Source: Dactylosporangium siamense
GTDB taxonomy: Bacteria > Actinomycetota > Actinomycetes > Mycobacteriales > Micromonosporaceae
Assembly: GCF_016862795.1 (NCBI RefSeq)
Contig: NZ_BONQ01000154.1
Span: forward strand, 1 to 64,000
DNA length: 64,000 nucleotides
Direction of reading: 5' to 3'
The notes under the pieces: model-generated
The model's database searches: none
The model's input: only the letters and a program-made list of their open reading frames with translations
Told to the model about the DNA's origin: nothing
Made by a program: the position numbers and the translations under genes
Shown here: positions 4,722 through 37,437 of the stretch, piece after piece
Position numbering within the stretch: the first letter of the stretch is position 1
Layout: each line of letters opens with the position of its first letter

Positions 4722-4732
4722 GGAAGGCCGCG

Positions 4733-7282: not shown

Positions 7283-7375
7283 CGGTCCTGCTCCTCGGCG
7301 CGAAGTTCGAATGCGAGCGGCGAACACGCTACCGCACGGCGTACCCCGGCGCTCCCCTCGATCGTTAGGAACCTC

Positions 7376-8713: not shown

Positions 8714-8755
8714 TCGGGCGCGACCCGTCCGGCACCGGCGCCGTTGGGCGGGGTA

Positions 8756-11116
8756 GTGAGCACAACACTGGACGCGACACGTGACCCCGCCGCAGGTCCG
8801 GCCGAGCCACCGGTGACCCCCGGCCGCGCCCGGCGCGGGCTGCCCGGCCTGCTCAGCCTGCTGCCGCTCGTCACCGGGCTCGCCGGGATCGCGTTCACGC
8901 TGCGGTGCTACGGGGTGTCGCTGCCCACGACCCTCGCGTTCGCCGGCTGGCTCGTCGCCGGTGTCGTGCTACCGGGGACGCTGCTGTGGCGCGCGCTGCT
9001 GGGCCGCTCCGGCTGGCTCGTCGCCGACGTCGTCGCCGGCGCCGCCGTCGGCTACGTCATGGAGGTCTTCGCCTACGTCGCCGCCCGCGCCGCCGGAGCG
9101 CCGCTGCTGGTGCTCGCCTGGCCCGCCGGGATGATCGCCGCGTCCCTGCTCGTGCCCCGCCTGCGAAAGGCCTGGCGGGGCACGGTGGCTCCGGTCCGGA
9201 CCCCGGCGCTGTGGTCCTGGTCGATGCTGCTCGTCGTCGGCGTGTTCGTCCTGCGCAGCGTCCGGATGTTCCGCTCGCACGGCCTCGACTGGCCCATCAC
9301 CAACCCGGCCGACGCCGACACCCCGTTCCACCTGGCGCTGATCGCCGAGGCGAAGCAGCACCTGCCGATGCAGGCGCCGTGGGTGTCCGGCGAGCCGCTG
9401 GTCTACCACTGGTTCGTCTACCCGGAGATGGCCGCGACCAGCTGGGTCACCGGCATCGACCCGCTGACGCTGCTGGTCCGGCTCACCCCGCTGCCGATGT
9501 TCGCCGGCACGCTGCTGCTCGTCGCGGTCCTCGCCCGGCGCCTCACCGGCGGCTGGTGGACCGGGCCCGTCGCGGCGGTCGTGACGCTGTTCGTCCTCGC
9601 CCCCGACCCGTACGGCTGGCCGCACACCGACGGCTGGTTCGGTTTCAGCGCATACGAGGACGGCTCCGTGTTCCGGCTGGTCGCCTGGACCAGCCCGACG
9701 CAGACGTTCGGCGCGCTGCTGTTCGCCGCCGTCGTCCTGGTGCTGCTCGACCGGTTCGAGCACCGTGGGGGCAAGGGACCCTGGCTGCTGTTCACGCTGC
9801 TGCTCGCCGGACTGGCCGGGGCGAAGTCGCCGTACCTGCCGCTGCTGACCGGCGCCCTCGTCCTCGTCGTGCTCGTCCGGCTGGTCGCCCGCCGCGGCCT
9901 GCACCGCCCGGCGCTGCTCGCGGCCGCGCTCACCGCCGCGTGCACCGTCGCCGCGCAGTTCGTCCTGTACGACAGCGGCGCCAACCAGGGGCTGGTCGTG
10001 CGGCCCCTGGCCACCATGGACGGGTTCGCCACCGTCGCCGCCACCTGGACCGGCTACACCGGCCCCGGCACGCCCGCCGGGCACGCCCGGGTCGCCGCCG
10101 GGCTCACCGTCCTGTGCTGGCTGTTCATGTGGGCCGGCGCGCTCACCCTCGGCCGCCGGGCCCTGGACCCGCCGGTGCTGCTGCTCCTCGCGGTGGGCGC
10201 CGGCGGGCTCGCCGGGGTGCTGCTGTTCGGCCACCCGGGCGGCTCCCAGTCCTACCTGATCGTGTCGGCGCGGCCGTACCTCGCCCTGGCGTCCGTCGTC
10301 GGGCTGGCCGCCGTCGCCGGCCGGATGACCCGGGTGCGGGCCGGGCTCCTCGCCCTGGCCGCGGCCGTCGGCGTCGCCGCGGTGCTGCTCCTGCGCCGGT
10401 TCGACACCGTCCAGCCGGTCGGGGAGCGGCTCGGGTGGGAGCTCGCCCGCCCGTACCTCATCCTTGCCGGGCTCGCGTTCACGGTCGGGGTGGCCGGCGT
10501 GGTGGCGGGGCTGATCCGCCGGGACCGCCGCGTCCTCGCGATGCTCGTCGCGCTCTGCGCCGGGTTCGGGCTGCCGACCGCCTACGACCAGACGGCCGCC
10601 GTCGTCACCGACACCGCCGCCGGCGGCTGGCGCGCCGTGCCCGCCGCGGACCTGGTCGGCCCCGACGGCCGCACCAGCGCCATCGACCGCGACACCTGGG
10701 ACGCCGGCCGCTGGCTGCGCGCGCACACCGGACCCGGTGACCTCCTCGCCACGAACGCGCACTGCTTCGGCGTCCGGCCCCCGGGCGAACGGTGCGACAA
10801 CCGGCGGTTCGCGCTCGCCGCCGCCAGCGGCCGCCGGGTCCTCGTCGAAGGCTGGGGCTTCACCAACACCACCTACGAACGCGCCGCCGCGGACGGGGTG
10901 CCGCCGTGGTTCGCCGACTTCTGGGACCCCGAGCGGCTCGCCGCCAACGACGCCGCGTTCACCGACCCCGGCCCCGCGACGATCGGCGTGCTGCGCGACC
11001 GGTACCACGTCCGCTGGCTCGTCGCCGACGCGACCGCCGGACCCGTCGGCGACCTCGGTGCCTTCGTGGTGCCGCGGTTCACGGCCGGACAGCTCACCGT
11101 CTATGAGGTGGCATGA
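8756..11116 (+). CDS. Large polytopic membrane protein, probable glycan assembly enzyme
   Basis: 786 residues. A dozen or more membrane helices are followed by a soluble C-terminal part (about residue 620 onward) with HCFGVRPPGERCDN and VEGWGFTNTTYERA. External-loop motifs include TNPADADTPFHLALIAEAKQ and VYHWFVYPEMA, which recur in large actinobacterial membrane proteins of surface polysaccharide loci. The GTG at 8756 follows GGGCGGGG. The stop overlaps the aminotransferase start by 4 bases. Catalytic role is inferred from context only; it could be a GT-C transferase or a transport/ligase component. Confidence 0.6.
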   Translation: MSTTLDATRDPAAGPAEPPVTPGRARRGLPGLLSLLPLVTGLAGIAFTLRCYGVSLPTTLAFAGWLVAGVVLPGTLLWRALLGRSGWLVADVVAGAAVGYVMEVFAYVAARAAGAPLLVLAWPAGMIAASLLVPRLRKAWRGTVAPVRTPALWSWSMLLVVGVFVLRSVRMFRSHGLDWPITNPADADTPFHLALIAEAKQHLPMQAPWVSGEPLVYHWFVYPEMAATSWVTGIDPLTLLVRLTPLPMFAGTLLLVAVLARRLTGGWWTGPVAAVVTLFVLAPDPYGWPHTDGWFGFSAYEDGSVFRLVAWTSPTQTFGALLFAAVVLVLLDRFEHRGGKGPWLLFTLLLAGLAGAKSPYLPLLTGALVLVVLVRLVARRGLHRPALLAAALTAACTVAAQFVLYDSGANQGLVVRPLATMDGFATVAATWTGYTGPGTPAGHARVAAGLTVLCWLFMWAGALTLGRRALDPPVLLLLAVGAGGLAGVLLFGHPGGSQSYLIVSARPYLALASVVGLAAVAGRMTRVRAGLLALAAAVGVAAVLLLRRFDTVQPVGERLGWELARPYLILAGLAFTVGVAGVVAGLIRRDRRVLAMLVALCAGFGLPTAYDQTAAVVTDTAAGGWRAVPAADLVGPDGRTSAIDRDTWDAGRWLRAHTGPGDLLATNAHCFGVRPPGERCDNRRFALAAASGRRVLVEGWGFTNTTYERAAADGVPPWFADFWDPERLAANDAAFTDPGPATIGVLRDRYHVRWLVADATAGPVGDLGAFVVPRFTAGQLTVYEVA

Positions 11117-27406: not shown

Positions 27407-28687
27407 TCAGCCGTGGCTGTGGCTGCTGGGGGTGCTGTCGCCGCTCGGGGTGATGTGCACCGACTCGACCCACGACGGCGGCAGCGGCGGGTTGGCCCCG
27501 ATCAGCCCGGCGATGAGCCGGCAGGCGGTTGGCTCGTCGGGCCACGGGGTGCCGCCGTCGGTGAGGACGACCACGATCTGCGGCCGGTCCGGCGAGCGCA
27601 GCGCCGCGGCGATCCCGACCCGCATGTCGGTGCCGCCGCCACCGCCGAGCTCCACCTGCTCCGCCTTCACCACCCGGGTCACGGCGTGCACGTCGGCGTC
27701 GCAGGCCACGACGGTCACCCGGTTGCCCCGGATGCCGACGGTCCGCAGCACGCCGGTCACCTCGCCCAGCGCGGCGGCCAGGTCGTCGGCGCCCATCGAG
27801 CCGGACGTGTCGACGACGATCGCGACCCGCGGCAGCGGCCGCCGCAGGCTCGGCAGCACCACCCCGCGCATCGCCCCGGTCCGCCGTCCGGGCCGCGCAT
27901 ACGTGTAGTCGACCGCGCCGCTGGCCCACGCGACCGCCTGACGCAGCGCACCGGTCAGCAGCCGCCGCCAGTCCACGACGGGCTCGGCGATCTCGTCGGC
28001 CCAGCGCTGCCAGCCGCCGGGCACGGTGCCGCGGGACCGCACGTGGGCGCGGATCGCGTCGGCGGTCTGCCGGCGGATCGCGACCGCTTCCACGTCGCGG
28101 ACGCCGGGCCCGGCCCCGTCGCCGACCTCGCCGTCGACCGGGGTGCCGTGCGCGCCCGACCCGCACTGCACCAGGTGCTCGTGGGTGTGCGGCACGCCGG
28201 CCAGATACTCCTCGAACAGCCGCCCCTCGGGCAGCCCGAACGTCTTGGGCTCCACCCGCGACGCCGGCAACGTGAGCCGGTCCGCGATCAGGTCGTCGTT
28301 GATCTCGCAGTCCTGGGCGAGGTTGACCCGCAGGTGGTCGGCGCGGTCCGCGGCGGGCAGCCGGTCCGCTCGCCCGTGGTGGTCACGCAGCAGGTGCGCC
28401 ACCTCGTGCACCCACACCCCGGCGAGCTCCTCGACGCTGTGCCCGTCGACGAACTCGGGCGACACATACAGCCGCCACCGCCGGTCGACCCCCATCGTCG
28501 CCAGGTGCCGGCTCGGCACCACCGACAGCGCATACAGCGCCGTGGCCAGATACGGCCGCAGCATCGCCGCCTTGTAGCGCGCCGCGAGCAGCTTCGTGCG
28601 GTCCAGCGCCCGCGCCGCGGGCACTTCAGGCACGGCGGCCTCGGGCGCGGCGACCTCAGGCGTGGCGACCTCGGGCACGGCGGTCAT
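27407..28687 (-). CDS. VWA-like/metallopeptidase-like protein (DUF2201 type)
   Basis: 426 residues. A PEVA-rich tail of about 25 residues precedes a metallopeptidase-like half with WVHEVAHLLRDHHGRA (HExxH). The C-terminal half is a von Willebrand A domain with the MIDAS motif VDTSGSMG and VVLTDGG. DUF2201 proteins pair with MoxR-type AAA ATPases, in which the VWA protein links the ATPase to its target. The start overlaps the ATPase stop by 4 bases, which confirms the pair. Whether the peptidase site is active is unknown. Confidence 0.86.
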   Translation of the reverse strand: MTAVPEVATPEVAAPEAAVPEVPAARALDRTKLLAARYKAAMLRPYLATALYALSVVPSRHLATMGVDRRWRLYVSPEFVDGHSVEELAGVWVHEVAHLLRDHHGRADRLPAADRADHLRVNLAQDCEINDDLIADRLTLPASRVEPKTFGLPEGRLFEEYLAGVPHTHEHLVQCGSGAHGTPVDGEVGDGAGPGVRDVEAVAIRRQTADAIRAHVRSRGTVPGGWQRWADEIAEPVVDWRRLLTGALRQAVAWASGAVDYTYARPGRRTGAMRGVVLPSLRRPLPRVAIVVDTSGSMGADDLAAALGEVTGVLRTVGIRGNRVTVVACDADVHAVTRVVKAEQVELGGGGGTDMRVGIAAALRSPDRPQIVVVLTDGGTPWPDEPTACRLIAGLIGANPPLPPSWVESVHITPSGDSTPSSHSHG

Positions 28688-29871
28688 CGCAGCGCGCCGG
28701 ACAGGCTCAGGATGTCGATGAACGCGTCGATGGTCGCCGGCACCGGCCAGGTCTTCTCACGCATCGCGGCCAGGTCGGCGGCGGCGCGGGCGGCCACGTC
28801 GGGCACCCCCGCGTCGACGGCCTTGCTCAGCACCGTCCAGCCCGCCTCCCACCGCTCGCGGGTCGTGTTGCTCTGCACGGCCGACACGACCGCGGTCAGG
28901 AACGCCAGCTGCCGGTCGCCGCGGGTCGGCAGCTGGAACGCGTCGGGGTTGGCCAGGACCCGGTTCGGGTCCGGCAGGTCGAGCTCGTCGAGGTAGTTGA
29001 CCAGCTCCAGGCCGGCCCCGTCGCCGATCGCGCCGATCAGCGCCGTGGACAGCGCGGCCCGCGACGCGTCGCTGGCCATGCCGAACGTCAGCAGCCGCAG
29101 CGCCATCTCCCAGGTGCGCGGCGACGGCCACGCCCCGCCGCGGGCCTCGGCGTCGGCGGGCAGGTGGTGGGTGAGGCCCGGCCGGGCGGTGAGGAACCCG
29201 GACAGCGTGCCCCGCGCCCGGGCGAGCGCCGACGCCGCCCGCTTCGGGTCGACGCTCGGGATGTCGGCGGTCGGCCAGGTGCCGGCCAGGCCCCGGGCGA
29301 CGACCGCGGGGTCGTGGGTCCAGTGCAGGTGGACGAACCGGTTCGCGAGGGGCGGGCTCAGGTGCCAGCCGTCGGCGGCGCTCGCCGGCGGGTTGGCGGC
29401 GGCGACGACCCGCACGGCTGGCGGCAGCTCGAGGCTGCCGACGCGCCGCTCCAGGACGACCCGCAGCAGCGCCGCCTGCACCGCCGGCGGCGCCGAGGAC
29501 AGCTCGTCGAAGAAGATCAGGCCGTAGCCGCGCTTCGCGAGCCGCACCGCCCAGTCCGGCGGCGCCATCGGCACCCCCTGTGTCGCGGGGTCGTCACCGA
29601 CGACGGGCAGCCCGGCGAAGTCCGACGGCTCGTGGATGCTCGCGATGACCGTCTCCATCGGCACCTGGAGGCGATCGGACAGCTGCTGCAACGCCGAGGA
29701 CTTGCCGATGCCGGGCTCGCCCCACAGCAGGACCGGCAGGTTGGCGGAGACGGCGAGCGCGAGGGCTTCCAGCTGGGTGTTGTCCCGGCGCTCCACCCGG
29801 GTCGAACGGGTCGCGGCGAGCAGCTCGTCGGCCGCCGCGAGCAGCGTCAGCGCCGTGGGTTCTGCGGTCAT
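28684..29871 (-). CDS. MoxR-type AAA+ ATPase
   Basis: 395 residues. Walker A GEPGIGKSSALQ, Walker B YGLIFFDELSSAPP, sensor 1 VVAAANPP, and RFVHLHW. MoxR ATPases remodel or activate partner proteins together with VWA proteins, in the cytosol. The ATG at 29871 is preferred over an in-frame start ten codons upstream because TACCGT ends 8 bases before it. It starts 52 bases after the ankyrin operon and runs the same way, so the two blocks may act together. Confidence 0.9.
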   Translation of the reverse strand: MTAEPTALTLLAAADELLAATRSTRVERRDNTQLEALALAVSANLPVLLWGEPGIGKSSALQQLSDRLQVPMETVIASIHEPSDFAGLPVVGDDPATQGVPMAPPDWAVRLAKRGYGLIFFDELSSAPPAVQAALLRVVLERRVGSLELPPAVRVVAAANPPASAADGWHLSPPLANRFVHLHWTHDPAVVARGLAGTWPTADIPSVDPKRAASALARARGTLSGFLTARPGLTHHLPADAEARGGAWPSPRTWEMALRLLTFGMASDASRAALSTALIGAIGDGAGLELVNYLDELDLPDPNRVLANPDAFQLPTRGDRQLAFLTAVVSAVQSNTTRERWEAGWTVLSKAVDAGVPDVAARAAADLAAMREKTWPVPATIDAFIDILSLSGALR

Positions 29872-29878
29872 GGGCGAC

Positions 29879-29884
29879 ACGGTA
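29879..29884 (-). promoter_or_regulatory. -10 box TACCGT of the MoxR-VWA pair, leaderless
   Basis: Read on the minus strand, TACCGT ends 8 bases before the ATG at 29871. It gives the pair its own promoter in the 51-base gap after the ankyrin operon. Confidence 0.5.
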
Positions 29885-29922
29885 GCGGCCACGTACGACA
29901 TTTCCCGACCACATTCCCACGG

Positions 29923-31341
29923 TCAGGACTCCAGCAGGAACCACAGGTCTTCGAGGCACCCGGCGGCCCGGGCCAGGTCGGCCCAGCCGGCGCCGGCGAA
30001 CGTGACGGCGCTCACATCCGCGCCCATCGTGACGAGCGCCCGGACGGTGGTCGCCGCCCCGCCGTTGGCGACCGCGAACAGCAGCGGCGTCAGGCCCGCC
30101 CGGTCGCGGGCCTCCAGGTCCAGCCCCGCCGCCAGGAGCTCCAGCAGCAGCGTCTCGACCAGCTCGGCGGTGTCGCCCCCGCCCGGCAGGTGCGCGAGCA
30201 GGTGCAGCATCGTGCGCCGCTCCGGGTCCCGGAAGTACGGATCACCGCCCGCCGCCAGCCACGCCAGCAGCGCCGGGGCGTCGCCGTGCCGCGCCAGCCG
30301 TACCACCGTGTCACGGCGCAACCGCAGCACCTTCGGCAACGCCGCCAGGGGGTCGTGCCAGCCGAGGTCGCCGGGTTCGGCGAACCGCCAGACACCGTCG
30401 CGGCGGACCCGGACCGGACCCACGCCCGGCTCCGGCGCCGGCGGCATCGTCGACAGCGCGGGGAACAGCGCCGCACCGACGAGGGGATGCAGCGCCGAAG
30501 CCGGCAGCATCCCGAGCCGCACCAGGTCGGCGTCGACGGGCCGCTCCACCAGCGCCGCCGGCAACCGCAACGCGGCCCCGGCGCCGTCCTCACCGGCGAC
30601 ACCACTGACCGTTGTGTCCCGGACCTGGGTGGTGTACGCCCCGTCGACGTGATCCAGCAGCACCCCCTCCGAGGGGGCACCCGCCGACCGGATCGCCGCA
30701 CGGAGCCCGGTCAGGTTCAGCCGCCACACCCGTCGCGCCGCCGGAGCGCCGGGCCCGCGCAGCTCGGGCCGGCGGCCGACCAGCGCCTCCAGGTCGAAGC
30801 CGGCGAGGCGCCACGCCCCGATCCAGTCCCCGGCGTCCTGCATAGCGATGACGTGCTCGGCGAGCCCCCACGCCTCCCGCGGCAGCCGCGACCCGCCGGC
30901 GTCGAGGAAGAGCCGCCCGGTCAGGGCGCCCGTGTGCCGGCTGTCCCAGCGTTCCCGGCTGTGCACCAACGACCCCCGCCACGAGTCCGGCGGCACGGCA
31001 CCGTAGCGCAGCGCCAGCCGCTCGGGCGCGCGCCGCAGCACGAACAGCGCCCGGGTCCCGCCGTAGACGTTCAGGAGCGTGACGGGCTGCGCCGGGTCGA
31101 GGTGCCAGCGCAGCAGGTCCGGCACCAGGTGCCGCAGGTCGTCCTCGACCCGCTCCGCGACCGCGCCGCCGTCGCCGTGGGCGATCGCCGACGGGTCCAG
31201 CTCGACGTCCACGTGCGCCGCCGCGCAGGCGCCGCGCCAGTCCCCGGCGAGGCGCCGCGCCGTGGCCGCCGTGATCATCCAGGCGGGCACCCCGAGCCGC
31301 CGCGTCCACCGCGCTGCCGCGAGCTCCCGGCGCCAGCTCAC
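29923..31341 (-). CDS. Ankyrin-repeat protein, paralog A
   Basis: 472 residues. The N-terminal module (MITAATARRLAGDWRGACAA, then DDLRHLVPDLLRWHL) is shared with the next two genes. The middle has WDSRHTGAL, AMQDAGDWIGAWRLAGFD and VRLGMLPASALHPLV. The C-terminus has ankyrin-like repeats (LHLLAHLPGG, LEARDRAGLTPLLFAVANGG). No signal peptide or membrane helix, so cytosolic. It starts with a GTG overlapping the stop of paralog B by 4 bases and is last in the operon. The function is unknown; ankyrin repeats normally bind proteins. Confidence 0.8.
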   Translation of the reverse strand: MSWRRELAAARWTRRLGVPAWMITAATARRLAGDWRGACAAAHVDVELDPSAIAHGDGGAVAERVEDDLRHLVPDLLRWHLDPAQPVTLLNVYGGTRALFVLRRAPERLALRYGAVPPDSWRGSLVHSRERWDSRHTGALTGRLFLDAGGSRLPREAWGLAEHVIAMQDAGDWIGAWRLAGFDLEALVGRRPELRGPGAPAARRVWRLNLTGLRAAIRSAGAPSEGVLLDHVDGAYTTQVRDTTVSGVAGEDGAGAALRLPAALVERPVDADLVRLGMLPASALHPLVGAALFPALSTMPPAPEPGVGPVRVRRDGVWRFAEPGDLGWHDPLAALPKVLRLRRDTVVRLARHGDAPALLAWLAAGGDPYFRDPERRTMLHLLAHLPGGGDTAELVETLLLELLAAGLDLEARDRAGLTPLLFAVANGGAATTVRALVTMGADVSAVTFAGAGWADLARAAGCLEDLWFLLES

Positions 31342-32843
31342 GACGCCAGCTCCCGCAGCGCCCGGATCGCCTGCGGGGTGCCGCCCTCGGCGACGGCGTG
31401 CTGCGTCGGCGTCCGCCCGGCCCGGTCGCGGGCCCGCGGGTCGAGCCCGGCGTGCCGCAGGCGGGTCACGACCGGCTCCGGGTCCGGCAGCCACGCGATC
31501 AGGTGCAGCAGGGTCCGGCCGAGGTGGTCCCGCAGGTGCGGGTCGAGGCCCGCGTCGAGCCACGCGGCGATCGCCGGGGCGTCGCCGTTGACGGCGTGCA
31601 GGACGATGTCCCGGCGCCGCAGCCGCAACACCTTCGGGGTCCACGCGTCGGGGGCGCGCCATCCGGCCCGCGCCGCGAAGCAACCGCGCAGCGGCGCCCC
31701 GCCGAGGGCCCGCAGCGCCAGCTCCCGGCGCATCTCCTCGCCCGTGTGGTGGCCGTCGCCGAGCACGTGCCACACACCCTGGCACCGGACCCGCACCGGT
31801 GCCAGGTCGGGGACCGGGTCGGGCGGGCCTTCGAACAGCCCGGCCAGGCCGGGGAAGAGCGCGTCGCCGACGAGCGGGTGCAGCTGCTCCATCGGCAGCA
31901 GCCCGAGGCGGACGAGGTCGAAGTCCACCACCCGTTCAGCGCGCACGACCGGCAGGTCCGGCTGTGGCACCGGGGCACTTGGGTAGGACACCCGTAGGTC
32001 CGCGTCGACGGACAGCTGGGCGGTGAACCCCAGGACGTTCCCGCCGCTGAGCCCGACCCGCACCCGGTCCCGGCGGCCCGTCCGGATCTCGCCCACAGCG
32101 GCGCGCACCTGGGCGAGGTCCGGCCGGCTCTCGCGCAGGTGCCGCTCGATCCAGTGCCCCCGCTCGACCAGCGCCTGCAACGCCCGGACGTCGAAGCCGG
32201 CCACGTTCCACGCGCGGACCCAGTCGCCGGCGTCCTGCGCGGCGATCACCCGCTCCCGGTCGGTCCACGCCGCCTCGGGCAGCCGGTCACCGGTCGCGGT
32301 GAAGAACGGCAGGTGCCCGTCGTAGCCGCCGCAGCGGTCCAGCAGCGCGCCGGCGTGCCGGCTGTCCCACCGCTCCCGGTCCTGCGAGAGGTCCTGCAAG
32401 AGGTCCTGCGAAAGGCCCTGCGACTGGTCGTGCGACCGGTCCGGCGAAACGTCCTGTGGCGCGCCGCCGGCGCGTTCGGTGAACACGAGCTCGAGCCGCC
32501 GGCTGGGCGTGCCGGGGTGCCGCGGGCGGATCCGCAGCGCCATCGGTCCGTACCCGGCCAGCCGCACGTCGACCGGCCGCAGCGCCGTCGCCGGGGCCGC
32601 CCCGATCAGGTGCCAGCGCAGCAGATCCGGGGCGAGATGCCGCACGTCGTCCTCGACCGCGGCGGCGACCGCGGCGCCGTGGTCCCGCCGGATCCGGGCG
32701 AGGTCCAGGGCGACGTCGACGCCGGCCGCGTCGCAGGCGCCCCGCCAGTCGCCGGCGAGCCGCCGCCGGGTGGCCTCCTCGATCATCCAGCGGGGCACCG
32801 TGAACCGGCGCACCCGGTGCCACCCGCGCAGCTCGCGGCTCAC
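31338..32843 (-). CDS. Ankyrin-repeat protein, paralog B
   Basis: 501 residues from the GTG at 32843; a GTG at 32858 is an alternative. Same plan as its neighbours: MIEEATRRRLAGDWRGACDA, DDVRHLAPDLLRWHL, WDSRHAGALLDRC, AAQDAGDWVRAWNVAGFD, VRLGLLPMEQLHPLVGDALF. Then come ankyrin repeats (LDPHLRDHLGRTLLHLIAWL, LDPRARDRAGRTPTQHAVAE). A low-complexity insert of SQDL/LQDL tetrapeptides near residue 140, made by a 12-bp repeat, is absent from the paralogs. Fourth gene of the operon. Confidence 0.8.
   Translation of the reverse strand: MSRELRGWHRVRRFTVPRWMIEEATRRRLAGDWRGACDAAGVDVALDLARIRRDHGAAVAAAVEDDVRHLAPDLLRWHLIGAAPATALRPVDVRLAGYGPMALRIRPRHPGTPSRRLELVFTERAGGAPQDVSPDRSHDQSQGLSQDLLQDLSQDRERWDSRHAGALLDRCGGYDGHLPFFTATGDRLPEAAWTDRERVIAAQDAGDWVRAWNVAGFDVRALQALVERGHWIERHLRESRPDLAQVRAAVGEIRTGRRDRVRVGLSGGNVLGFTAQLSVDADLRVSYPSAPVPQPDLPVVRAERVVDFDLVRLGLLPMEQLHPLVGDALFPGLAGLFEGPPDPVPDLAPVRVRCQGVWHVLGDGHHTGEEMRRELALRALGGAPLRGCFAARAGWRAPDAWTPKVLRLRRRDIVLHAVNGDAPAIAAWLDAGLDPHLRDHLGRTLLHLIAWLPDPEPVVTRLRHAGLDPRARDRAGRTPTQHAVAEGGTPQAIRALRELAS
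32378..32449 (-). repeat. 12-bp tandem repeat, six units, in ankyrin paralog B
   Basis: Units close to GGTCCTGCGAGA run in frame and encode tetrapeptides such as SQDL and LQDL just before RERWDSR. The first three units are most alike; the last three have decayed. Confidence 0.85.
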
Positions 32844-32865
32844 TCGGCCGTGCCACACGGCGGGC

Positions 32866-34485
32866 TCACTCGCCTGGTGGTTGCAGGAACTCGAGCTCCG
32901 GGCGGCTGAAGCGGTCCAGGGTGTCGAAGAGGGAGACGCCGTTGTCGTCGACGGTGCCGGCGTCGGCGCCCGCCTCGAGGAGGGCGAGGACGAGCTGGGC
33001 GGTGCCGGTGTCGTACACCGCCGTCTGCAGCGGGGTCATGCCCCGCCGGTCGCGGGCCTCGACGTCCAGGCCGGCGGCGACGAGCCGGCGGAACAGGGTC
33101 AGGTCGTCGGGGGCGGCCATCAGCCCGCTGATGTGGTGCAGCAGCGTCCGGCCGTGCGGGTCACGGGCGTGCGGGTCGACGCCGGCGTCGAGCAGCTCCA
33201 GGACGCCGGGCAGGTCGCCGTGCTGGGCCCGCAGCATGAGGTCGCGGCGCAGTTCGCGCAGGGCGCGGGGGAGCGTCGAACCCGGTTCGCGCCAGGCCCG
33301 TTCGGCGGCGATACAGCCGTGCACCTGACCGCCGAGTGCGGACAAGGCCTGTTCGCGGCGGCGTTCCTCGTCGTCGTGCGGGATGTCGAAGCGTCCGCCG
33401 CTCATCCGCACGTGATGCCACGCGCCGTCCCGGCACCGCAGCCGGGCCTCCGCCACCGGAGCCGGAAGGACCCGCGGCGCGAGCGGCCCGGCCTCGGGGA
33501 AGAACGCGGCGTGCACGAGCGGGTGCAGTGACGAGACCGGCAGCACGCCCGCGCGGATCAGCTCGGCGTCGACCGGCCGCTGGAACGGCGCCGGGTCGAG
33601 GTGCCAGTCGGCGTCGCGGTCCTTGTAGCTGACCCTCACCCACGTGCCGGTCAGCTGCTCGCCCTCGAACCCGGTCAGCTCGACCAGGTTGGTCCAGCCG
33701 AACGGGATGCCGACCCGCTCCGACCCACGGTCCCGGGCCGCGGCGACGACGGCGGCGTGGTCGGCGAGGAACCCCTGCCAGTGCTGCTGGAGGATCCGCG
33801 CGTCCCACCGGCTGGCGGGCAGCGGCGGATCGGAGACGTCGACGCCGGCCGCCTGCCACGCCTCGCGGCCCTGCCCGGCGTCGTGCAGGCTGAGGATCCG
33901 CTCGGTGAGCCCCCAGGCCCGCTCCGGCAGCGGGTTGCCGGCCGGGTCGAAGAACGGCAGGTGGGTCCAGCCGCAGCCGGCCAGCAGCGCCCCGGACTCA
34001 CGGGCGTCCCACAGGGACCGGCGGGTCCGGTAGTCGTGCAGGGCGTGGAACGGCCGCGGGCCGTCGTCCCACTCCCAGTCGTCCCACGCGCCGGGGTCCA
34101 GCGGCTCGTCCGTGACGAAGAGCCGCAGCCGCTGGGAGCCGAAGCCGAGACGGGTGCCGCCGACGTAGAGCGCCGGCCCCTTGACGGTGCCGTCACCGTC
34201 GCCGCCTCCGGCGAGGTGCACGACCTGCCGGGCGTCGAGGTGGGTGTCGCCGCGGCCCGGCTTGCGGGGCAGGTGCCAGCGCAGCAGGTCGGGCGCGAAG
34301 TGCGCCAGGTCGTCCTCGAACGGCGTGTAGTCCCCGGGCGCGACGTCGACGTTCGCCGCGGCGCAGGCGGCCCGCCAGTCGCCGGCGAGGCGGGCGGCGG
34401 TCGCGGCCCGGATCATCGACGGGGGCGTCGCCCAGCGCCGGATCCGGCCCCAGTTCCGGGCGCCCGCGCGGCTCAGTGTCGTCAC
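32866..34485 (-). CDS. Ankyrin-repeat protein, paralog C
   Basis: 539 residues, the longest of the three. Shared module MIRAATAARLAGDWRAACAA and DDLAHFAPDLLRWHL, then LWDARESGALLAGCGWTHLP, LSLHDAGQGREAWQAAGVDV and IRAGVLPVSSLHPLVHAAFF. Ankyrin repeats at the end are VDPHARDPHGRTLLHHISGL and LDVEARDRRGMTPLQTAVYD, then GADAGTVDDNGVSLFDTL. The GTG at 34485 overlaps the stop of the leucine-rich-repeat gene. No known enzymatic motif in the shared N-terminal region. Confidence 0.82.
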   Translation of the reverse strand: MTTLSRAGARNWGRIRRWATPPSMIRAATAARLAGDWRAACAAANVDVAPGDYTPFEDDLAHFAPDLLRWHLPRKPGRGDTHLDARQVVHLAGGGDGDGTVKGPALYVGGTRLGFGSQRLRLFVTDEPLDPGAWDDWEWDDGPRPFHALHDYRTRRSLWDARESGALLAGCGWTHLPFFDPAGNPLPERAWGLTERILSLHDAGQGREAWQAAGVDVSDPPLPASRWDARILQQHWQGFLADHAAVVAAARDRGSERVGIPFGWTNLVELTGFEGEQLTGTWVRVSYKDRDADWHLDPAPFQRPVDAELIRAGVLPVSSLHPLVHAAFFPEAGPLAPRVLPAPVAEARLRCRDGAWHHVRMSGGRFDIPHDDEERRREQALSALGGQVHGCIAAERAWREPGSTLPRALRELRRDLMLRAQHGDLPGVLELLDAGVDPHARDPHGRTLLHHISGLMAAPDDLTLFRRLVAAGLDVEARDRRGMTPLQTAVYDTGTAQLVLALLEAGADAGTVDDNGVSLFDTLDRFSRPELEFLQPPGE

Positions 34486-35612
34486 CGGTACACGCTCACG
34501 ATCTCGCTGCCGGATCCCGTGCCGGCATCCGCCGGCGGGAGCAGCGCGCTGATGGCCCGTTTCACGCGGCGCGGGACGTCCGGGCCGAGCGCGAGGCGGG
34601 TCAGGTCGGTGGAGGGCAGCGCCGCGAGGAGCGCCTTGGCGCCCCGGCCGCCGACGCCGGTGTGGCGCAGGTCGAGCCGGCGCAGCCGGGTGCCGGGCAG
34701 CGCCGCGGCGAGCAGCGCGGCACCCTCGTCGCCGACCATGTTGTCGGCGGCGCCGAGCACCCGCAGCGACTGCGGCCGGCTCAGGTCGAGACTGTCCAGC
34801 ACGGACAGCCGGTCGGCGATCCCGGCGACCGCGGCGGGGGAGAGGCCGTTGCCGCCGAGCCCGAGCGTGCTGCCGGCTGTGGTGACGGCTTGGACGACGG
34901 GTGCGACGCCGGCGTCGCCGAGGCGGTTGGCGGCCAGGAACAGGCCCCGGACGCCGGCCTCCCGCAGCAGCCGCGCCAGCAGCGGACCGGCGGACGGGCC
35001 GAGGCCGTTGCCGCCGAGGAAGACCCGGGTCACCGGGGTGGGCCGGGCGGCGAGCGCGTCGACGAGCGTCTCCAGGCCGGCGGTCGTCAGCCCCGTGTTG
35101 ACCAGGTCGACGGTGTCGATGGTGGTGTTGCGGCGCAGCGTCTCCGCGAGCGCGGCCACGCCCTCGTCGCCGAGCGGGTTGCGCTTGAGCCACAGCGCCC
35201 GCACCCGGTCGTCGGCGGCGAGCCGCTCGAACAGTGGTGCCGCGCCGGCGGCGTCGATCGCGTTGCAGCCGAGGTACAGCGTCTCCACCCGGTGCCCGTC
35301 CGGCAGCCCTTCGGCCAGGGCGGCGGTGCCGGTGGCGCCGAGCCCGTTGGTGCCCAGCAGCAGGTGCACCGCGTGCGGCGAGCCGACGACCCGGTCCAGG
35401 ACCTGGGTCACGCCGGCCGCGCCGAGCCCCTGCTTGCACAGGTCGACCCGGCCGTCGGGCTGCAGCGTGCCGAGCGGGAAGCGCTCGGTGCCGCGCACCG
35501 GCTCCGGGTCGGCGAGCCGCCGCAGCAGGGGCGACAGGTCGGCCAGGTCGGCCTGCGGCACGGCCGGCACGGCGAGCACCGGGCAGGCGATGTCGGGAGC
35601 TTCGTCTACCAC
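34482..35612 (-). CDS. Leucine-rich-repeat protein, ribonuclease-inhibitor type
   Basis: 376 residues. Between about residues 50 and 350 there are roughly eleven 28-residue repeats with LxLxxNxLGxxGxxxLAxxL character (for example LYLGCNAIDAAGAAPLFERL and LFLAANRLGDAGVAPVVQAV). This is the RI-like LRR fold usually used for protein binding. No signal peptide. The GTG at 35612 overlaps the SDR stop by 7 bases. Second gene of the ankyrin operon. Confidence 0.8.
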   Translation of the reverse strand: MVDEAPDIACPVLAVPAVPQADLADLSPLLRRLADPEPVRGTERFPLGTLQPDGRVDLCKQGLGAAGVTQVLDRVVGSPHAVHLLLGTNGLGATGTAALAEGLPDGHRVETLYLGCNAIDAAGAAPLFERLAADDRVRALWLKRNPLGDEGVAALAETLRRNTTIDTVDLVNTGLTTAGLETLVDALAARPTPVTRVFLGGNGLGPSAGPLLARLLREAGVRGLFLAANRLGDAGVAPVVQAVTTAGSTLGLGGNGLSPAAVAGIADRLSVLDSLDLSRPQSLRVLGAADNMVGDEGAALLAAALPGTRLRRLDLRHTGVGGRGAKALLAALPSTDLTRLALGPDVPRRVKRAISALLPPADAGTGSGSEIVSVYR

Positions 35613-36925
35613 TGCACCACCTGGTAGTCCTTGAGGAAGACACCGGAGATCCGGTCGCCGTGCACGCCGCGGACGATCGGATCGTAGACCCGGGCGGCGC
35701 CGTCGACGACGTCGAGCGGCACCCGGAAACCGGCCTCGTGGAAGGCCTCCTTCGTGCCCTGCGGCCGCTCGTCGGTGACCCAGCCGGTGTCGACGCTGGT
35801 GACGTGGATGCCGTCGCGGGCGTAGTCGGCCGCGATGGTCCGGGTCAGCATGTTCAGCCCGGCCTTGGCCATGTTCGTGTGCGGGTGCCGGCTGGTCTTG
35901 TTGCGGCGGCTGAAGCTGCCCTCCATCGCCGAGACGTTGACGACGTAGCGGTCGGGGTGCGGCGACGCCAGCAGCAGCGGGCGCAGCCGGGCGGTGAGCA
36001 GGAACGGCACGAACGAGTTGACGACCTGCACCTCCATCCACTCCCGGGGGCTGACCTCGTGCAGGTGCAGCACCCAGCTGTTGACGGGACGCAGGTCGAG
36101 CGGCTCGCCGGTCTCGTCGACCGCGCCGAGCGGGAAGTAATCCACAGTGGAGCGCAGCGCGGGCACCTGCGTCGCGGGCACCACCGGCACCGGCGGCGGC
36201 GACGTCGTCCCGGCGGCGGCACCCTCCAGCGCGGCCGTCTCGGCGGCCCGCAGCGAGCGGTGATACTCGAACGGCCGGGAGATGGTCTGGGCCGCGTTGT
36301 TGATCAGGATGTCGAGGTGGCCCCAGCGGGCGGTGACCGCGTCGACGAGCCCGACGACCGCGGGCAGGTCCAGGAAGTCCACGCCGTGCACCCGGAGCCG
36401 GTCCTGCCAGTCGGTGAAGTCGGCCTCGGCGGCGAAGCGGCGCGCCGCGTCGTGCGGGAAGCGGGTGGTGACGATGACGTCGGCGCCGTCGCGGAGCAGC
36501 TTCAGCGCGGTCTGGAAGCCGATCTTGATCCGCCCGCCGGTGACGAGCGCGCGTCGGCCGCGCAGGTCGCACCGGGCCGTGCGGCGGGCCGTGTTGCCGG
36601 TCGAGCACGGCACGCACATGAGCGGGTACGCCCGGTTGACCGTGCGGTAGTGCTTCTTGCAGACGTAGCAGCGCCGCGCCCGCAGCAGCGCGGCGTCGTC
36701 CTGCCCGGCGCCTTCCGGTCCGGCGTCTCCGTCAGCGGTCAGCACCCGGAGATCGTGGGTGCTGGTCGCGGTGCGCCGGGCCGTCCGCTGGTGCTTCTTG
36801 CGGCTCTTGTACGCACTGACGACCGCCTCGCGCACCACCGGCGCTGACGGGTCGTCGTCCGCGTCGTTGAGCGCGGCGAGCACGCGCAGGCACGCCGCGA
36901 CGTCGGAGGGGTCCAGACGAGGCAC
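35606..36925 (-). CDS. SDR-fold oxidoreductase with N-terminal zinc-finger-like extension
   Basis: 439 residues, first gene of the operon. Residues 1-120 are an extension with basic SAYKSRKKHQRTARR and two CxxC pairs (CYVCKKHY, MCVPC) spaced like a zinc ribbon. The SDR domain follows: RRALVTGGRIKIGFQTA, INNAAQT, VVNVSAMEGSFSRRN. At the position of the usual YxxxK there is HTNMAK, so the catalytic Tyr is Thr while Lys is kept. The enzyme may be inactive or atypical, perhaps a nucleotide sensor. The GTG at 36925 is set by TAGGCT 7 bases upstream. Confidence 0.82.
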   Translation of the reverse strand: MPRLDPSDVAACLRVLAALNDADDDPSAPVVREAVVSAYKSRKKHQRTARRTATSTHDLRVLTADGDAGPEGAGQDDAALLRARRCYVCKKHYRTVNRAYPLMCVPCSTGNTARRTARCDLRGRRALVTGGRIKIGFQTALKLLRDGADVIVTTRFPHDAARRFAAEADFTDWQDRLRVHGVDFLDLPAVVGLVDAVTARWGHLDILINNAAQTISRPFEYHRSLRAAETAALEGAAAGTTSPPPVPVVPATQVPALRSTVDYFPLGAVDETGEPLDLRPVNSWVLHLHEVSPREWMEVQVVNSFVPFLLTARLRPLLLASPHPDRYVVNVSAMEGSFSRRNKTSRHPHTNMAKAGLNMLTRTIAADYARDGIHVTSVDTGWVTDERPQGTKEAFHEAGFRVPLDVVDGAARVYDPIVRGVHGDRISGVFLKDYQVVQW

Positions 36926-36931
36926 CGGCAG

Positions 36932-36937
36932 AGCCTA
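36932..36937 (-). promoter_or_regulatory. -10 box TAGGCT of the SDR-LRR-ankyrin operon, leaderless
   Basis: On the minus strand TAGGCT ends 7 bases before the GTG at 36925. It appears to drive five coupled genes down to 29923. Confidence 0.55.
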
Positions 36938-36966
36938 GCCGCTGTGCGCAAGCGGTGAGATCGGGG

Positions 36967-37039
36967 CAGAGCCGGTCGGAATCGAACCGACGTCCTCCAG
37001 CGTGCTGTGCCGGCGCGACGACCTCTGCGCTACGACCCT
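36967..37039 (-). tRNA. tRNA-like gene with anticodon-position AGC and C33
   Basis: 73 bases fold as a cloverleaf with canonical spacing. The acceptor is AGGGTCG/CGGCTCT with G3-U70 and G67-U-type wobbles, position 8 is T, and the D arm is GCGC/TCGC with A14, G15 and GG. The anticodon stem is CCGGC/GCTGG with loop ACAGCAC, the variable loop AGGAC, and the T arm GTCGG-TTCGATT-CCGAC. Discriminator G, no encoded CCA. Position 33 is C instead of the near-universal U, and A34 would be rare in bacteria. G3-U70 is the alanine identity pair, but G73 is not the alanine discriminator. The first ten bases overlap the end of the VOC gene. It may be a real odd tRNA, a decayed copy, or another RNA. Confidence 0.55.
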
Positions 37040-37437
37040 GCCGGCGGGTAGCTTAGTACCCTCGTGCGCGGTTGGTAGAGCTGGTGTAGCACAAAGGTGT
37101 TGCCGTCGGGGTCGGAGAAGCTCGTGACCCGCGAGAACGGCCCTTCCTCGATGGGTCCGTCGAAGATGATGCCCCGCTCCGACAGCTCCTCGAAGGTCTT
37201 CTCGATGTCGTCGGTGTCCAGCACGATGCCGCGCAGCGAACCCGCCGGCATGGTCTCGAACCAGGTGACGAGCGTGAACGCGGTCTGGCCGTGCTTGGGC
37301 GCCACCTCGACCCACCGGCGGTCGCCGGAGTCGTTGTCGCTGACCAGCTCCCAGTCCAGCGCGTTGACGTAGAAGTCGCGTGCCCGGTCCTGGTCGCTCA
37401 CCGGGATGGACACGATCTGCACGTGATCGATCGGCAT
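37030..37437 (-). CDS. VOC family protein (glyoxalase/bleomycin-resistance fold)
   Basis: 135 residues from the ATG at 37437. VOC repeats: VQIVSIPVSDQDRARDFYVN, then a second half ending FSDPDGNTFVLHQLYQP. Metal-site residues typical of the fold are visible (His near the start, Glu in VEVAPK), but the substrate is unknown. It stands alone between the operon promoter and an unknown gene. The stop codon TAG corresponds to positions 8-10 of the tRNA-like gene on the same strand. Confidence 0.88.
   Translation of the reverse strand: MPIDHVQIVSIPVSDQDRARDFYVNALDWELVSDNDSGDRRWVEVAPKHGQTAFTLVTWFETMPAGSLRGIVLDTDDIEKTFEELSERGIIFDGPIEEGPFSRVTSFSDPDGNTFVLHQLYQPRTRVLSYPPAGS

Follow-up and report, generated by a model that had tools for sequence, protein, structure and literature searches.

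On the minus strand of the window, which is the whole 64,000-nucleotide stretch of Dactylosporangium siamense DNA that was analysed, an SDR gene is followed by an LRR gene, three ankyrin-repeat genes (ank1 to ank3), a MoxR-type ATPase gene, and a gene for a DUF2201 protein with a VWA domain, with a tRNA-like RNA gene ahead of the operon (Table 1). The ankyrin-repeat proteins belong to a family, called C0 here, that is marked by a region of ~400 residues without a Pfam family, closing in a C-H-H-C (CHHC) module.

Table 1 Features of the locus in the window
Feature	Position	Strand	Evidence
SDR gene	35606..36925	-	adh_short E 3.8e-21
LRR gene	34482..35612	-	LRR_6 (Pfam); best PDB match ribonuclease inhibitor E 1.5e-22
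ank1 (C0 protein 1), ~400-aa novel region with CHHC module and C-terminal ankyrin repeats	32866..34485	-	
ank2 (C0 protein 2)	31338..32858	-	Pfam Ank families
ank3 (C0 protein 3), CHHC module lost	29923..31341	-	sole 1/133 without module
MoxR-type AAA+ ATPase, subfamily A	28684..29901 (alternative ATG 29871)	-	AAA_5
DUF2201 protein, HExxH putative metallopeptidase domain and VWA domain	27407..28687	-	DUF2201_N E 2.4e-30, DUF2201 E 3.6e-16
tRNA-like RNA gene, 'anticodon' loop ACAGCAC, C at position 33	36966..37039 (ARAGORN: 36964-37040)	-	ARAGORN, Rfam, family model R1, alignment A6
-10-like hexamer TAGGCT, candidate leaderless promoter	36932..36937	-	sequence; 6 nt ahead of SDR GTG start
N-terminal zinc-ribbon-like four-cysteine segment of SDR (C86, C89, C104, C107)	36605..36670	-	37/37 homologues
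CHHC module of ank1 (C351, H357, H370, C391), predicted metal site	33313..33435	-	132/133 aligned C0 proteins

Gene order and protein features

All seven genes were present on the same strand by open-reading frame coordinates and translations and were found again by a codon-usage gene caller, two of them with shorter starts. Pfam placed adh_short, LRR_6, Ank families, AAA_5, and DUF2201_N with DUF2201 in their products. The original prediction of seven genes in one direction with mostly tight junctions was borne out by these data, as the SDR and LRR genes overlap by 7 nt and the LRR/ank1, ank2/ank3, and MoxR/VWA pairs by 4 nt each, with a gap of 7 nt between ank1 and ank2 and of 21 or 51 nt between ank3 and MoxR, depending on the MoxR start. 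The genes within its range of 28684-36925 are real, but most of the VWA gene lies outside that range. Among named loci taken from the best 80 of 548 candidates, the 4-nt overlap recurs in 40/62 LRR-C0 pairs and 44/64 C0-MoxR pairs. TAGGCT or TACGCT was found near the SDR start in four of five Dactylosporangium relatives and was not evident in the aligned upstream rows of other genera, so that a leaderless promoter ahead of the SDR gene is plausible, as a statement at the level of consensus. PADLOC and NCBIfam searches of the locus returned weak matches to generic ankyrin or AAA parts and nothing else.

In the SDR protein, threonine (T350) occupies the position of the catalytic tyrosine in 37/37 homologues, all of which keep K354, and the middle glycine of the nucleotide-binding motif is replaced by lysine (K134) in 36 and by arginine in one. 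A classical SDR enzyme with YxxxK and TGxxxGxG motifs was therefore rejected, and the protein looks like a non-classical nucleotide-fold protein; its proposed role as a trigger is a suggestion. The LRR protein is of the ribonuclease-inhibitor-like type, a resemblance of class that is silent on ribonuclease binding. The MoxR motif residues (Walker A K67, Walker B D132/E133, N170, and R188) were found in 93/93 rows, with one Walker A position either S or T, and H94, E95, and H98 together with D293, S295, S297, and D377 of the DUF2201/VWA protein in 91/91. Intact ATPase motifs thus stand beside a VWA protein with a MIDAS, as in the broad class of MoxR-vWA chaperone pairs. The VWA protein ends 17 residues past DUF2201, and no gene family recurs behind it across genera in the 31 loci clustered.

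Co-occurrence of the genes and the conserved C0 region

The ankyrin operon and the MoxR-VWA pair had been proposed to form one system, and rather than being rarely found together in related genomes they co-occur. The C0 region was matched in 22/22 relatives with a MoxR of subfamily A or B and in 0/39 without (61 relatives), and in 41/41 such genomes of a class draw of 394 at E 1e-6 or better (G114 by fragment only); the two samples overlap in some genomes (e.g. G000, G009, and G056), and the genomes are not independent. The other 353 class-draw genomes gave three weak C0 matches, each no more than 3 kb away from a MoxR with 51-53% identity. MoxR is the next gene in 64 of 78 named C0 loci, a set biased to subfamily A because it comes from the best 80 of 548 candidates. 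The loci, with one to four C0 copies each, occur in Streptomyces, Kitasatospora, Actinomadura, Nonomuraea, Micromonospora, Actinoplanes, and Dactylosporangium. Position is stable within a genus, and the flanking genes are mostly genus-specific. In one congener (G005), the site is nearly empty, with the flanking genes 206 nt apart and a decayed tRNA-like remnant of 41.9 bits. Stand-alone C0 genes were found only alongside a subfamily-A hub in the same genome (61 relatives, coordinates compared by eye), and one subfamily-B triad is carried on a mobilizable plasmid.

The CHHC module is present in 132/133 aligned C0 proteins by alignment columns (130/133 by regular expression), the sole exception being ank3 of the window. 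It is also found in all but one of the five subfamily-C proteins examined, and that one had been shortened by the gene caller. In 13 subfamily-B rows (L045-L059), a basic tail replaces the ankyrin repeats, while one locus with a B-like MoxR (L044) keeps them. Since most subfamily-B C0 proteins carry this tail, the ankyrins are ruled out as the conserved partner, and, judged from the alignments, the conserved third component is the C0 N-terminal region with its CHHC module. Against Pfam, to E 0.5, 29 such regions gave matches to five families, none of them in more than one member (best E 0.073), and no PDB or BFVD match was found for the N-region below E 0.5, which does not in itself prove a new fold; with whole C0 proteins, ankyrins alone filled the top 50 fold matches. 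The C0N profile omits five C0 proteins whose gene calls were truncated. The predicted secondary structure runs strand-helix-helix-three strands, twice, and a RelE/ParE-like fold for both halves is at most a weak candidate, the structural matches being at noise level, to ParE (Z 3.2, residues 212-292, rmsd 3.8, 76 aligned) and RegB (Z 2.3, residues 32-157, rmsd 4.6, 94 aligned).

Against one relative, dN/dS was 0.42 and 0.61 for C0 genes, 0.08 for MoxR, and 0.07-0.35 for flanking genes. In that pair, the C0 genes appear from these ratios to evolve fastest, which shows relaxed or faster change and not positive selection. The C0 region was not found in the viral contigs searched. The ank2 query gave no match against plasmids even though a B triad is plasmid-borne, indicating that this query is too distant.

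A tRNA-like RNA at the head of the operon

The tRNA-like gene, which the original prediction had overlooked, lies 38 nt upstream of the SDR operon and scores 42.3 bits with the Rfam tRNA model RF00005 (gathering 29) and 90.7 bits with the family model R1, of which the window row is itself a part. At the loci, the tRNA-likes score 74-97 bits with R1 and ordinary tRNAs at most 57, matches that are partly by construction, as the rows that went into R1 come from these loci. In alignment A6, for which 49 of 105 tRNA calls were used and 56 left out, the D and T arms are near-invariant and the anticodon arm is variable, with entropies of 0.16 and 0.22 bits vs 1.47 bits for the anticodon loop. The RNA family has the tRNA fold: a cloverleaf with covarying stems (paired cells 99.4% in the acceptor and 99.6% in the T arm) and the conserved D- and T-loop bases (GG and TTCGA, each in 47/49 rows). 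CC follows the discriminator in 40/49 rows, and CCA is encoded in 8/49. Position 33 is C in 29/49 rows, including the window, and U in 14/49, and some loops are not 7 nt long, so that an ordinary decoding tRNA was rejected. ARAGORN was unable to assign the 'anticodon' loop in several loci, and six copies in one genome have six different anticodon arms. Alanine identity via G3:U70 was dropped because this pair, present in the window, is absent from most rows.

With a gapped D-arm pattern, the tRNA-like was found in 13/14 relatives with a subfamily-A MoxR vs 0/47 others, and in 12/12 class-draw genomes with a subfamily-A MoxR vs 2/382 others (12/13 if G147, whose MoxR matched in two pieces of 71% and 46% and was scored as subfamily B, is counted as A). 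A reversed control pattern gave 0 in all genomes of both samples. The gapped pattern replaced a loose one with one mismatch that had matched 60/61 genomes, with controls mostly higher. In 74 named loci, again from the best 80 of 548 candidates, 80/81 strong matches are no more than 400 nt ahead of the start of an SDR, LRR, or C0 gene, and 55/58 hub+LRR loci carry such a match; of the remaining three, two are at contig ends and one has a copy at 44.5 bits. The RNA gene is on the same strand as the operon, at a median of 71 nt ahead of the first gene. This count by locus covers 74 of 78 loci, omitting L093, L094, L095, and L098 (repeat genomes of L032-L035, Dactylosporangium), which are kept in the residue counts (133, 93, 91, and 37 rows) and the 105/31 count, with some genomes doubled. 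A separate tRNA-like copy accompanies several C0 genes that are tandem, internal, or stand-alone, but among the stand-alone ones only three of seven in the window genome, and 6/11 named loci from the same best 80 of 548, have one. Three named hub loci have no called LRR, two of which (L145 and L150) also lack the tRNA-like. In the subfamily-B triads examined, tRNA-like, LRR, and SDR are all missing, which shows that some MoxR-VWA-C0 cores do without the RNA. One further genome (G347) has the SDR-LRR genes with a tRNA-like but no MoxR-VWA hub. The RNA was not found in the viral contigs or phages searched. Taken as comparative sequence evidence, these results show the locus to be one evolutionary unit, in which a dedicated tRNA-like RNA goes with a Cys4-ribbon SDR that lacks Tyr, with an LRR protein and between one and four C0 proteins, and with a MoxR/DUF2201-VWA pair.

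Known systems and possible function

MoxR-vWA ternary conflict systems comprise VMAP, iSTAND, FtsH, and beta-propeller types and, later, iSTAND2 and TERNS3 (the parts consulted of Kaur et al. 2020, PMC7159879; 2021, PMC8195603). They share with the unit an AAA+ MoxR, a VWA co-chaperone, a distinctive third component, and frequent occurrence in filamentous actinobacteria. Here, in contrast, the VWA domain follows a DUF2201_N HExxH domain without an effector tail, C0 with CHHC is the third component, and an LRR protein, Tyr-less SDR, and tRNA-like RNA are added; 'ankyrin' and 'DUF2201' are both absent from the main text of PMC7159879. The window MoxR has no Trp before LLWGEPG at Walker A, unlike the N-terminal WxhapG and PsWRxa of VMAP systems (consulted part of PMC7159879). 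Neither the end of the VWA protein nor the genes behind it supply the effector found after vWA or on an adjacent vWA-L in VMAP and iSTAND systems. A VMAP-C third component was rejected, with no such match in the 29 C0 N-regions (Pfam, E 0.5), and Pfam presumably includes a VMAP model. The inactive STAND module also gave no match in these regions with Pfam models, and iSTAND membership is unlikely. Beta-propeller and FtsH systems were rejected on the lack of a propeller in Pfam, a P-loop of GEPGIGKS vs GXXXTAKS, and a bpMoxR score of 22.2 bits, below the cut-off of 27. In TERNS3 systems the 5′ gene carries a TERNS3 alpha+beta domain; no TIR or effector domains were matched in the seven proteins. 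As far as tested, by profile and motif, placing the unit within the described ternary classes is not supported.

Ro60 carries a VWA domain, and no RtcB/RtcA, CARF, or Ro60 was found among the Pfam matches of the seven genes, which rejects the YrlA/Ro60 RNA repair operon. According to the sections consulted of PMC7790460, this operon, rsr-yrlBA-rtcBA, includes RtcR, Rsr/Ro60, and YrlA, a Y RNA in which one domain is tRNA-like, and so shares with the unit an operon-encoded tRNA-like non-coding RNA beside a VWA-type protein; its AAA+ regulator responds to broken tRNAs. Here, unlike YrlA, the RNA consists of nothing but a tRNA body whose anticodon arm varies, and the MoxR is not an enhancer-binding protein, unlike RtcR. 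Other MoxR/DUF2201-type pairs, with an adjoining AAA ATPase and VWA-like protein, occur on e.g. Rhodococcus and Mycobacterium plasmids (MoxR identity 39-43%), with other partner genes and no C0 or tRNA-like in the two stretches read. NLR-type receptors combine LRR with an NTP-driven switch, a likeness to the RI-like LRR and MoxR that is an analogy of working only, as these are separate proteins with no NACHT/STAND match. No description of the seven-gene/RNA unit was found in the open-access literature searched, a scope outside which most subscription papers fall.

The unit and its variable-loop tRNA-like RNA in soil actinomycetes point to an undescribed RNA-linked surveillance system, a reading drawn from gene content and conservation. 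The best explanation, to which we give a probability of roughly 0.4, is that MoxR-VWA reads and remodels repeat-protein sensors loaded with RNA. Sensor complexes would be assembled from the repeat proteins and the tRNA-like RNA, whose conserved body would be a handle for the proteins and whose variable anticodon arm would face a signal from outside, in the simplest case an enzyme or toxin that acts on tRNA. If the RNA were altered or left the complex, a C0 protein would be exposed and MoxR would remodel it with ATP via the VWA domain, and this would switch on the HExxH domain or free a C0/LRR partner, so that growth stops. Several C0 sensors could share a single hub, among them those encoded on their own at other places in the genome. 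Counting against this reading are the tRNA-like copies that stand alone, the hubless SDR-LRR genes of G347, the B triads and stand-alone C0 genes that lack the RNA, the weak PADLOC and NCBIfam matches, and the negative searches of viral contigs and phages. As in the original prediction, we infer that the ankyrin and LRR proteins may be clients or sensors, the SDR a trigger, and the function one of conflict; the least certain step is that the system answers to stress or conflict and does not regulate metabolism, and a defence role is unproven.

A more specific form, a tRNA guard system, seems improbable. In it, decoy tRNAs with anticodon arms mimicking tRNAs or other anticodon-nuclease targets would be held by LRR and C0-ankyrin sensors, and cutting or removal of a decoy would lead MoxR-VWA/HExxH to remodel the sensor and shut down the cell or hypha. 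Stand-alone C0 genes, some with their own decoys, would broaden the repertoire on one shared hub, which would amount to NLR-like guard-and-decoy immunity in bacteria, the bait being RNA. If the built-in design of RNA-loaded sensors works, it would unite a tRNA-like RNA family, CHHC-bearing repeat-protein sensors, and an AAA+ pair with a metallopeptidase-like domain, a trio with no joint description in the papers found; the novelty rests on the RNA partner, and the MoxR-VWA core alone would be a variation on a known type. It would also place the MoxR/DUF2201 pair in a context and might reveal how multicellular bacteria guard their tRNAs. The unit is directly testable, since many host strains are in culture collections.

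Doubtful, by comparison, is a cis-acting leader, that is, a tRNA mimic at the 5′ end of the mRNA that RNase P/Z would process, or that a protein of the operon would bind, to control expression. tRNA mimics in mRNA leaders are known (thrS) and give it precedent, and the copies lie close ahead of first genes and also before internal C0 units, but the full cloverleaf, the conserved loop bases, and the CC after the discriminator fit a free RNA better, as do the solitary copies away from family genes (G035, G254, G158, G419, and Streptomyces plasmids), and the variable anticodon arms would be left unexplained. We also think it unlikely that the pair is a house-keeping chaperone that matures C0/LRR complexes or inserts a cofactor with no conflict role: most MoxR-VWA pairs that have been studied serve in maturation (PMC7159879, consulted part) and the locus keeps its position within a genus, whereas the patchy distribution, faster C0 evolution, copy-number change, and RNA partner argue against such a role. 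It is quite unlikely that the RNA is a genuine aminoacylated tRNA whose amino acid is used in a reaction of the system, or an unusual decoding tRNA; the good cloverleaf, TTCGA, and the U33 and encoded CCA of some rows would suit it, and against it are the prevalent C33, unassignable loops, and anticodon arms that differ among copies of one genome. Least likely is that the tRNA-like is the mere attachment site of a mobile island, integrases using tRNA 3′ ends: the block gained or lost as a whole in G005, tRNA 3′ halves abutting the first gene in many genera, and the plasmid-borne B triad would agree with it, but the tRNA-likes are one divergent family, many have loops that could not decode, several C0 genes within and outside the operon have their own copies, and the copy in G005 is decayed where the operon is missing. 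One further genome (G347) has the SDR-LRR genes with a tRNA-like but no MoxR-VWA hub.

Unity of the operon and the MoxR-VWA pair

The seven genes from SDR to VWA form one conserved unit, and this unit is associated with a tRNA-like RNA. In the window, taken from a 12.7-Mb genome, the SDR gene, the LRR gene, three C0-ankyrin genes, the MoxR gene and the DUF2201 VWA gene all lie on the reverse strand with ends that overlap or almost touch. C0 denotes an N-terminal region of about 400 residues that ends in a C-H-H-C (CHHC) module and is usually followed by ankyrins.

Coordinates of the features discussed
Feature	Record	Positions	Strand
tRNA-like RNA gene	NZ_BONQ01000154.1	36966-37039	-
SDR	NZ_BONQ01000154.1	35606-36925	-
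LRR	NZ_BONQ01000154.1	34482-35612	-
ank1 (C0)	NZ_BONQ01000154.1	32866-34485	-
ank2 (C0)	NZ_BONQ01000154.1	31338-32858	-
ank3 (C0)	NZ_BONQ01000154.1	29923-31341	-
MoxR (subfamily A)	NZ_BONQ01000154.1	28684-29901	-
VWA/DUF2201	NZ_BONQ01000154.1	27407-28687	-
Histidine kinase	NZ_BONQ01000154.1	25273-26664	
Tandem tRNA-like array	L158	4490-4770	
Tandem tRNA-like array	L224	6623-7041	
tRNA gene and Tyr-less Cys4 SDR, Deinococcus plasmid	NZ_CP092194.1 (L229)	4169-5568	
Solitary tRNA-like	NZ_CP107736.1 (L227)	4996-5071	
Subfamily-B triad, Streptomyces plasmid	NZ_CP108274.1 (L178)	6407-10477	

MoxR was used as the starting query in 61 related genomes, where two close subfamilies were found: A, at 73-100% identity in 14 genomes, and B, at 56-63%. 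Thirty loci around MoxR matches, one of them at 47% identity, were clustered together with the window, giving 31 loci with gene calls for C0 (28), MoxR (31), VWA (30), SDR (11) and LRR (13); SDR and LRR accompanied subfamily A only. Two subfamily A loci deviated in order, with SDR-LRR placed between C0 and MoxR in one (L041) and several genes upstream in the other (L042). Neighbours outside the unit recurred across the 31 loci mainly within the window's genus, the exceptions being broad families such as response regulators.

The original prediction, that the ankyrin operon and the MoxR-VWA pair belong together, was borne out from both directions. A C0 query cut off before the ankyrins matched 22 of the 61 relatives, precisely the 22 having MoxR A or B, with both missing in the other 39. 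The reverse search with a C0 profile gave 78 named loci (the best 80 of 548), the culturable species Streptomyces lavendulae and S. virginiae being among their hosts, and in this set MoxR was the very next gene after C0 in 64 of the 78 and was followed by VWA in 63. The remaining 14 comprised ten C0 loci without the MoxR-VWA hub (stand-alone C0), the partial units L113 and L149, and loci L159 and L167, in which C0 was not called. Coded as S (SDR), L (LRR), C (C0), M (MoxR) and V (VWA), the commonest orders among these named loci from the best 80 of 548 were LCMV (29), SLCMV (13) and SLCCMV (9), followed by CMV and CSLCMV (3 each), LCCCCMV, LCCCMV and LCCMV (2 each) and SLCM (1). A complete subfamily-B C0-MoxR-VWA triad was also seen on a mobilizable Streptomyces plasmid.

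The association held among 394 genomes drawn from across the class: all 41 of those with MoxR A or B had a C0 match at E 1e-6 or better. Three of the remaining 353 gave a weak C0 match confined to the last part of the region, each with a MoxR of 51-53% identity at most 3 kb away on the same contig; these constitute subfamily C, in which the CHHC module lies within a protein of 270-340 residues placed after the MoxR-VWA pair or divergent from it. Twelve further genomes of the draw had a MoxR of 38-52% identity and no C0 match. Among five fetched subfamily C loci (L181-L185, MoxR 51-53% identity), the CHHC protein was divergent in four, there adjoining a protein of about 430 residues. On Rhodococcus and Mycobacterium plasmids (L179, L180), a related AAA/VWA-like pair is followed by small and ~390-aa hypothetical genes and a second AAA ATPase, and three more distant MoxR-VWA pairs (L192, L193, L194) have a 78-aa gene before and a 249-276-aa gene after.

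C0 genes also occur apart from the hub. The window's own genome carries one subfamily-B triad and seven C0-ankyrin genes besides those of the window; the 14-19.5 kb examined around each of the seven contains neither MoxR nor VWA. Coordinates compared by eye placed stand-alone C0 genes in 9 of the 14 A-hub relatives (10 counting a fragment in G022), in none of the eight B-only genomes and in none of the 39 hub-less genomes. In a congener (G005) that has neither MoxR A/B nor C0, the genes flanking the window's operon stand 206 nt apart, and the gap retains a likeness to the 5′ part of the tRNA-like, with the T-loop motif gone, 41.9 bits against the family model (a model of the RNA family built on operon loci) and no tRNA called in it by ARAGORN. 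With the operon absent and the RNA remnant decayed, this site indicates that the seven genes go together as a block, and loss of the block rather than gain is the simpler reading.

A tRNA-like RNA family upstream of the unit

The tRNA-like gene, missing from the original prediction, lies 38 nt upstream of the SDR start. ARAGORN called 105 tRNAs within 400 nt upstream of unit starts and 31 in the remainder of the 2.19 Mb, with some genomes counted twice. The tRNA-like sequences are one family in which GTAGCGCAGAGGTCGTCGCGC ... GGAGGACGCCGGTTCGAATCCGGCC is almost fixed and the acceptor stem covaries, with 99.4% of cells paired and four pairs changed on both sides. In the variable anticodon arm 76.6% of cells are paired, and the loop has an entropy of 1.47 bits compared to 0.16 for the D arm and 0.22 for the T arm. 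Of 49 rows, 29 have C and 14 have U at position 33, and some loops look ordinary by eye, for example those for CTC, GCC, CAT and GCT. Six copies, no two sharing the same arm, are present in the own genome: one at the window's operon, one beside a C0 gene on each of contigs C40 and C50, and the other three surrounding the C0 gene of C77. In loci L031-L035, one or two tRNA-likes stand between glyoxalase and SDR, with arms that differ among Dactylosporangium species (AGC, GCC, CAT, CTC), and two arrays of three tandem copies with differing arms precede a C0 or LRR gene.

A genome-wide search with a strict sequence pattern found the tRNA-like in 13 of 14 A-hub genomes and 0 of 47 others among the relatives, the single miss (G011) being a 69% complete genome whose contig starts inside C0. 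In the class-wide draw, all 12 A-hub genomes had it, as did 2 of the 382 remaining genomes, one with tRNA-like-SDR-LRR and no hub (G347) and one with a lone copy (G419). The family model scored tRNA-likes at 74-97 bits, and no ordinary tRNA in the loci exceeded 57; a degraded copy preceding a C0 gene (L164) reached 58. Of the 81 strong matches in 74 named loci, 80 lay a short distance before an SDR, LRR or C0 gene (median 71 nt). Since this model was trained on operon loci like those scored, the independent evidence for the RNA association is the genome-wide pattern search. Stand-alone C0 genes had a tRNA-like upstream in 3 of 7 cases in the own genome and at 6 of 11 named stand-alone loci. 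By the family model, the subfamily-B loci L044-L059 and L178 had none, and it was missing from two of the three named hub loci in which no LRR was called.

Both the SDR and the RNA have echoes on plasmids. A Deinococcus plasmid, outside Actinomycetota, encodes a Tyr-less Cys4 SDR (52% identity) with a tRNA gene 57 nt upstream, called tRNA-Ala(TGC) by ARAGORN and scoring 44.5 bits, in the range of ordinary tRNAs; a second T-arm-like stretch directly precedes it. No tRNA-like match was found beside two more plasmid SDRs (Tsukamurella, Streptomyces). The RNA itself was found by blastn in nine Streptomyces plasmid records, and the four examined had no annotated SDR, LRR, C0 or hub family gene near it. 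One of these solitary tRNA-likes (L227) lies 0.2 kb past a small gene that itself follows a HINT-type polymorphic toxin gene.

The proteins and a proposed working

The examined ATPase residues of MoxR were intact in 93 of 93 proteins (one Walker A position being either S or T), as were HExxH and MIDAS in 91 of 91 VWA proteins. All 37 SDRs kept Cys4 and had Thr at the position expected for the catalytic Tyr, with Lys or Arg within the dinucleotide motif, indicating that the SDR is no classical SDR enzyme. The C0 N-terminal region matched no Pfam family and had no useful match in PDB or BFVD; its predicted structure is confident (pLDDT 89.7, pTM 0.86; 91.7 and 0.90 for whole ank1). Of 133 aligned C0 proteins, 132 kept C-H-H-C; the one lacking it is the window's ank3, a degenerate or a repurposed paralogue. 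The C0 genes are the fast-evolving part of the operon, with dN/dS against the nearest relative of 0.42 (ank1) and 0.61 (ank2), compared to 0.08 for MoxR and 0.22-0.25 for VWA, SDR and LRR; the flanking genes range from 0.07 to 0.35.

We infer a working in which the fixed body of the RNA would be a handle for a protein and the variable arm the portion exposed to a signal, with C0 and LRR as the putative recognition parts. MoxR-VWA would read and remodel C0, probably through the CHHC module, the sole part seen in subfamilies A, B and C alike, and the HExxH domain may execute. A speculative guard-and-decoy reading, the boldest version of this mechanism, is compatible with the data.

The histidine kinase encoded downstream of the operon has a C-terminal repeat run.
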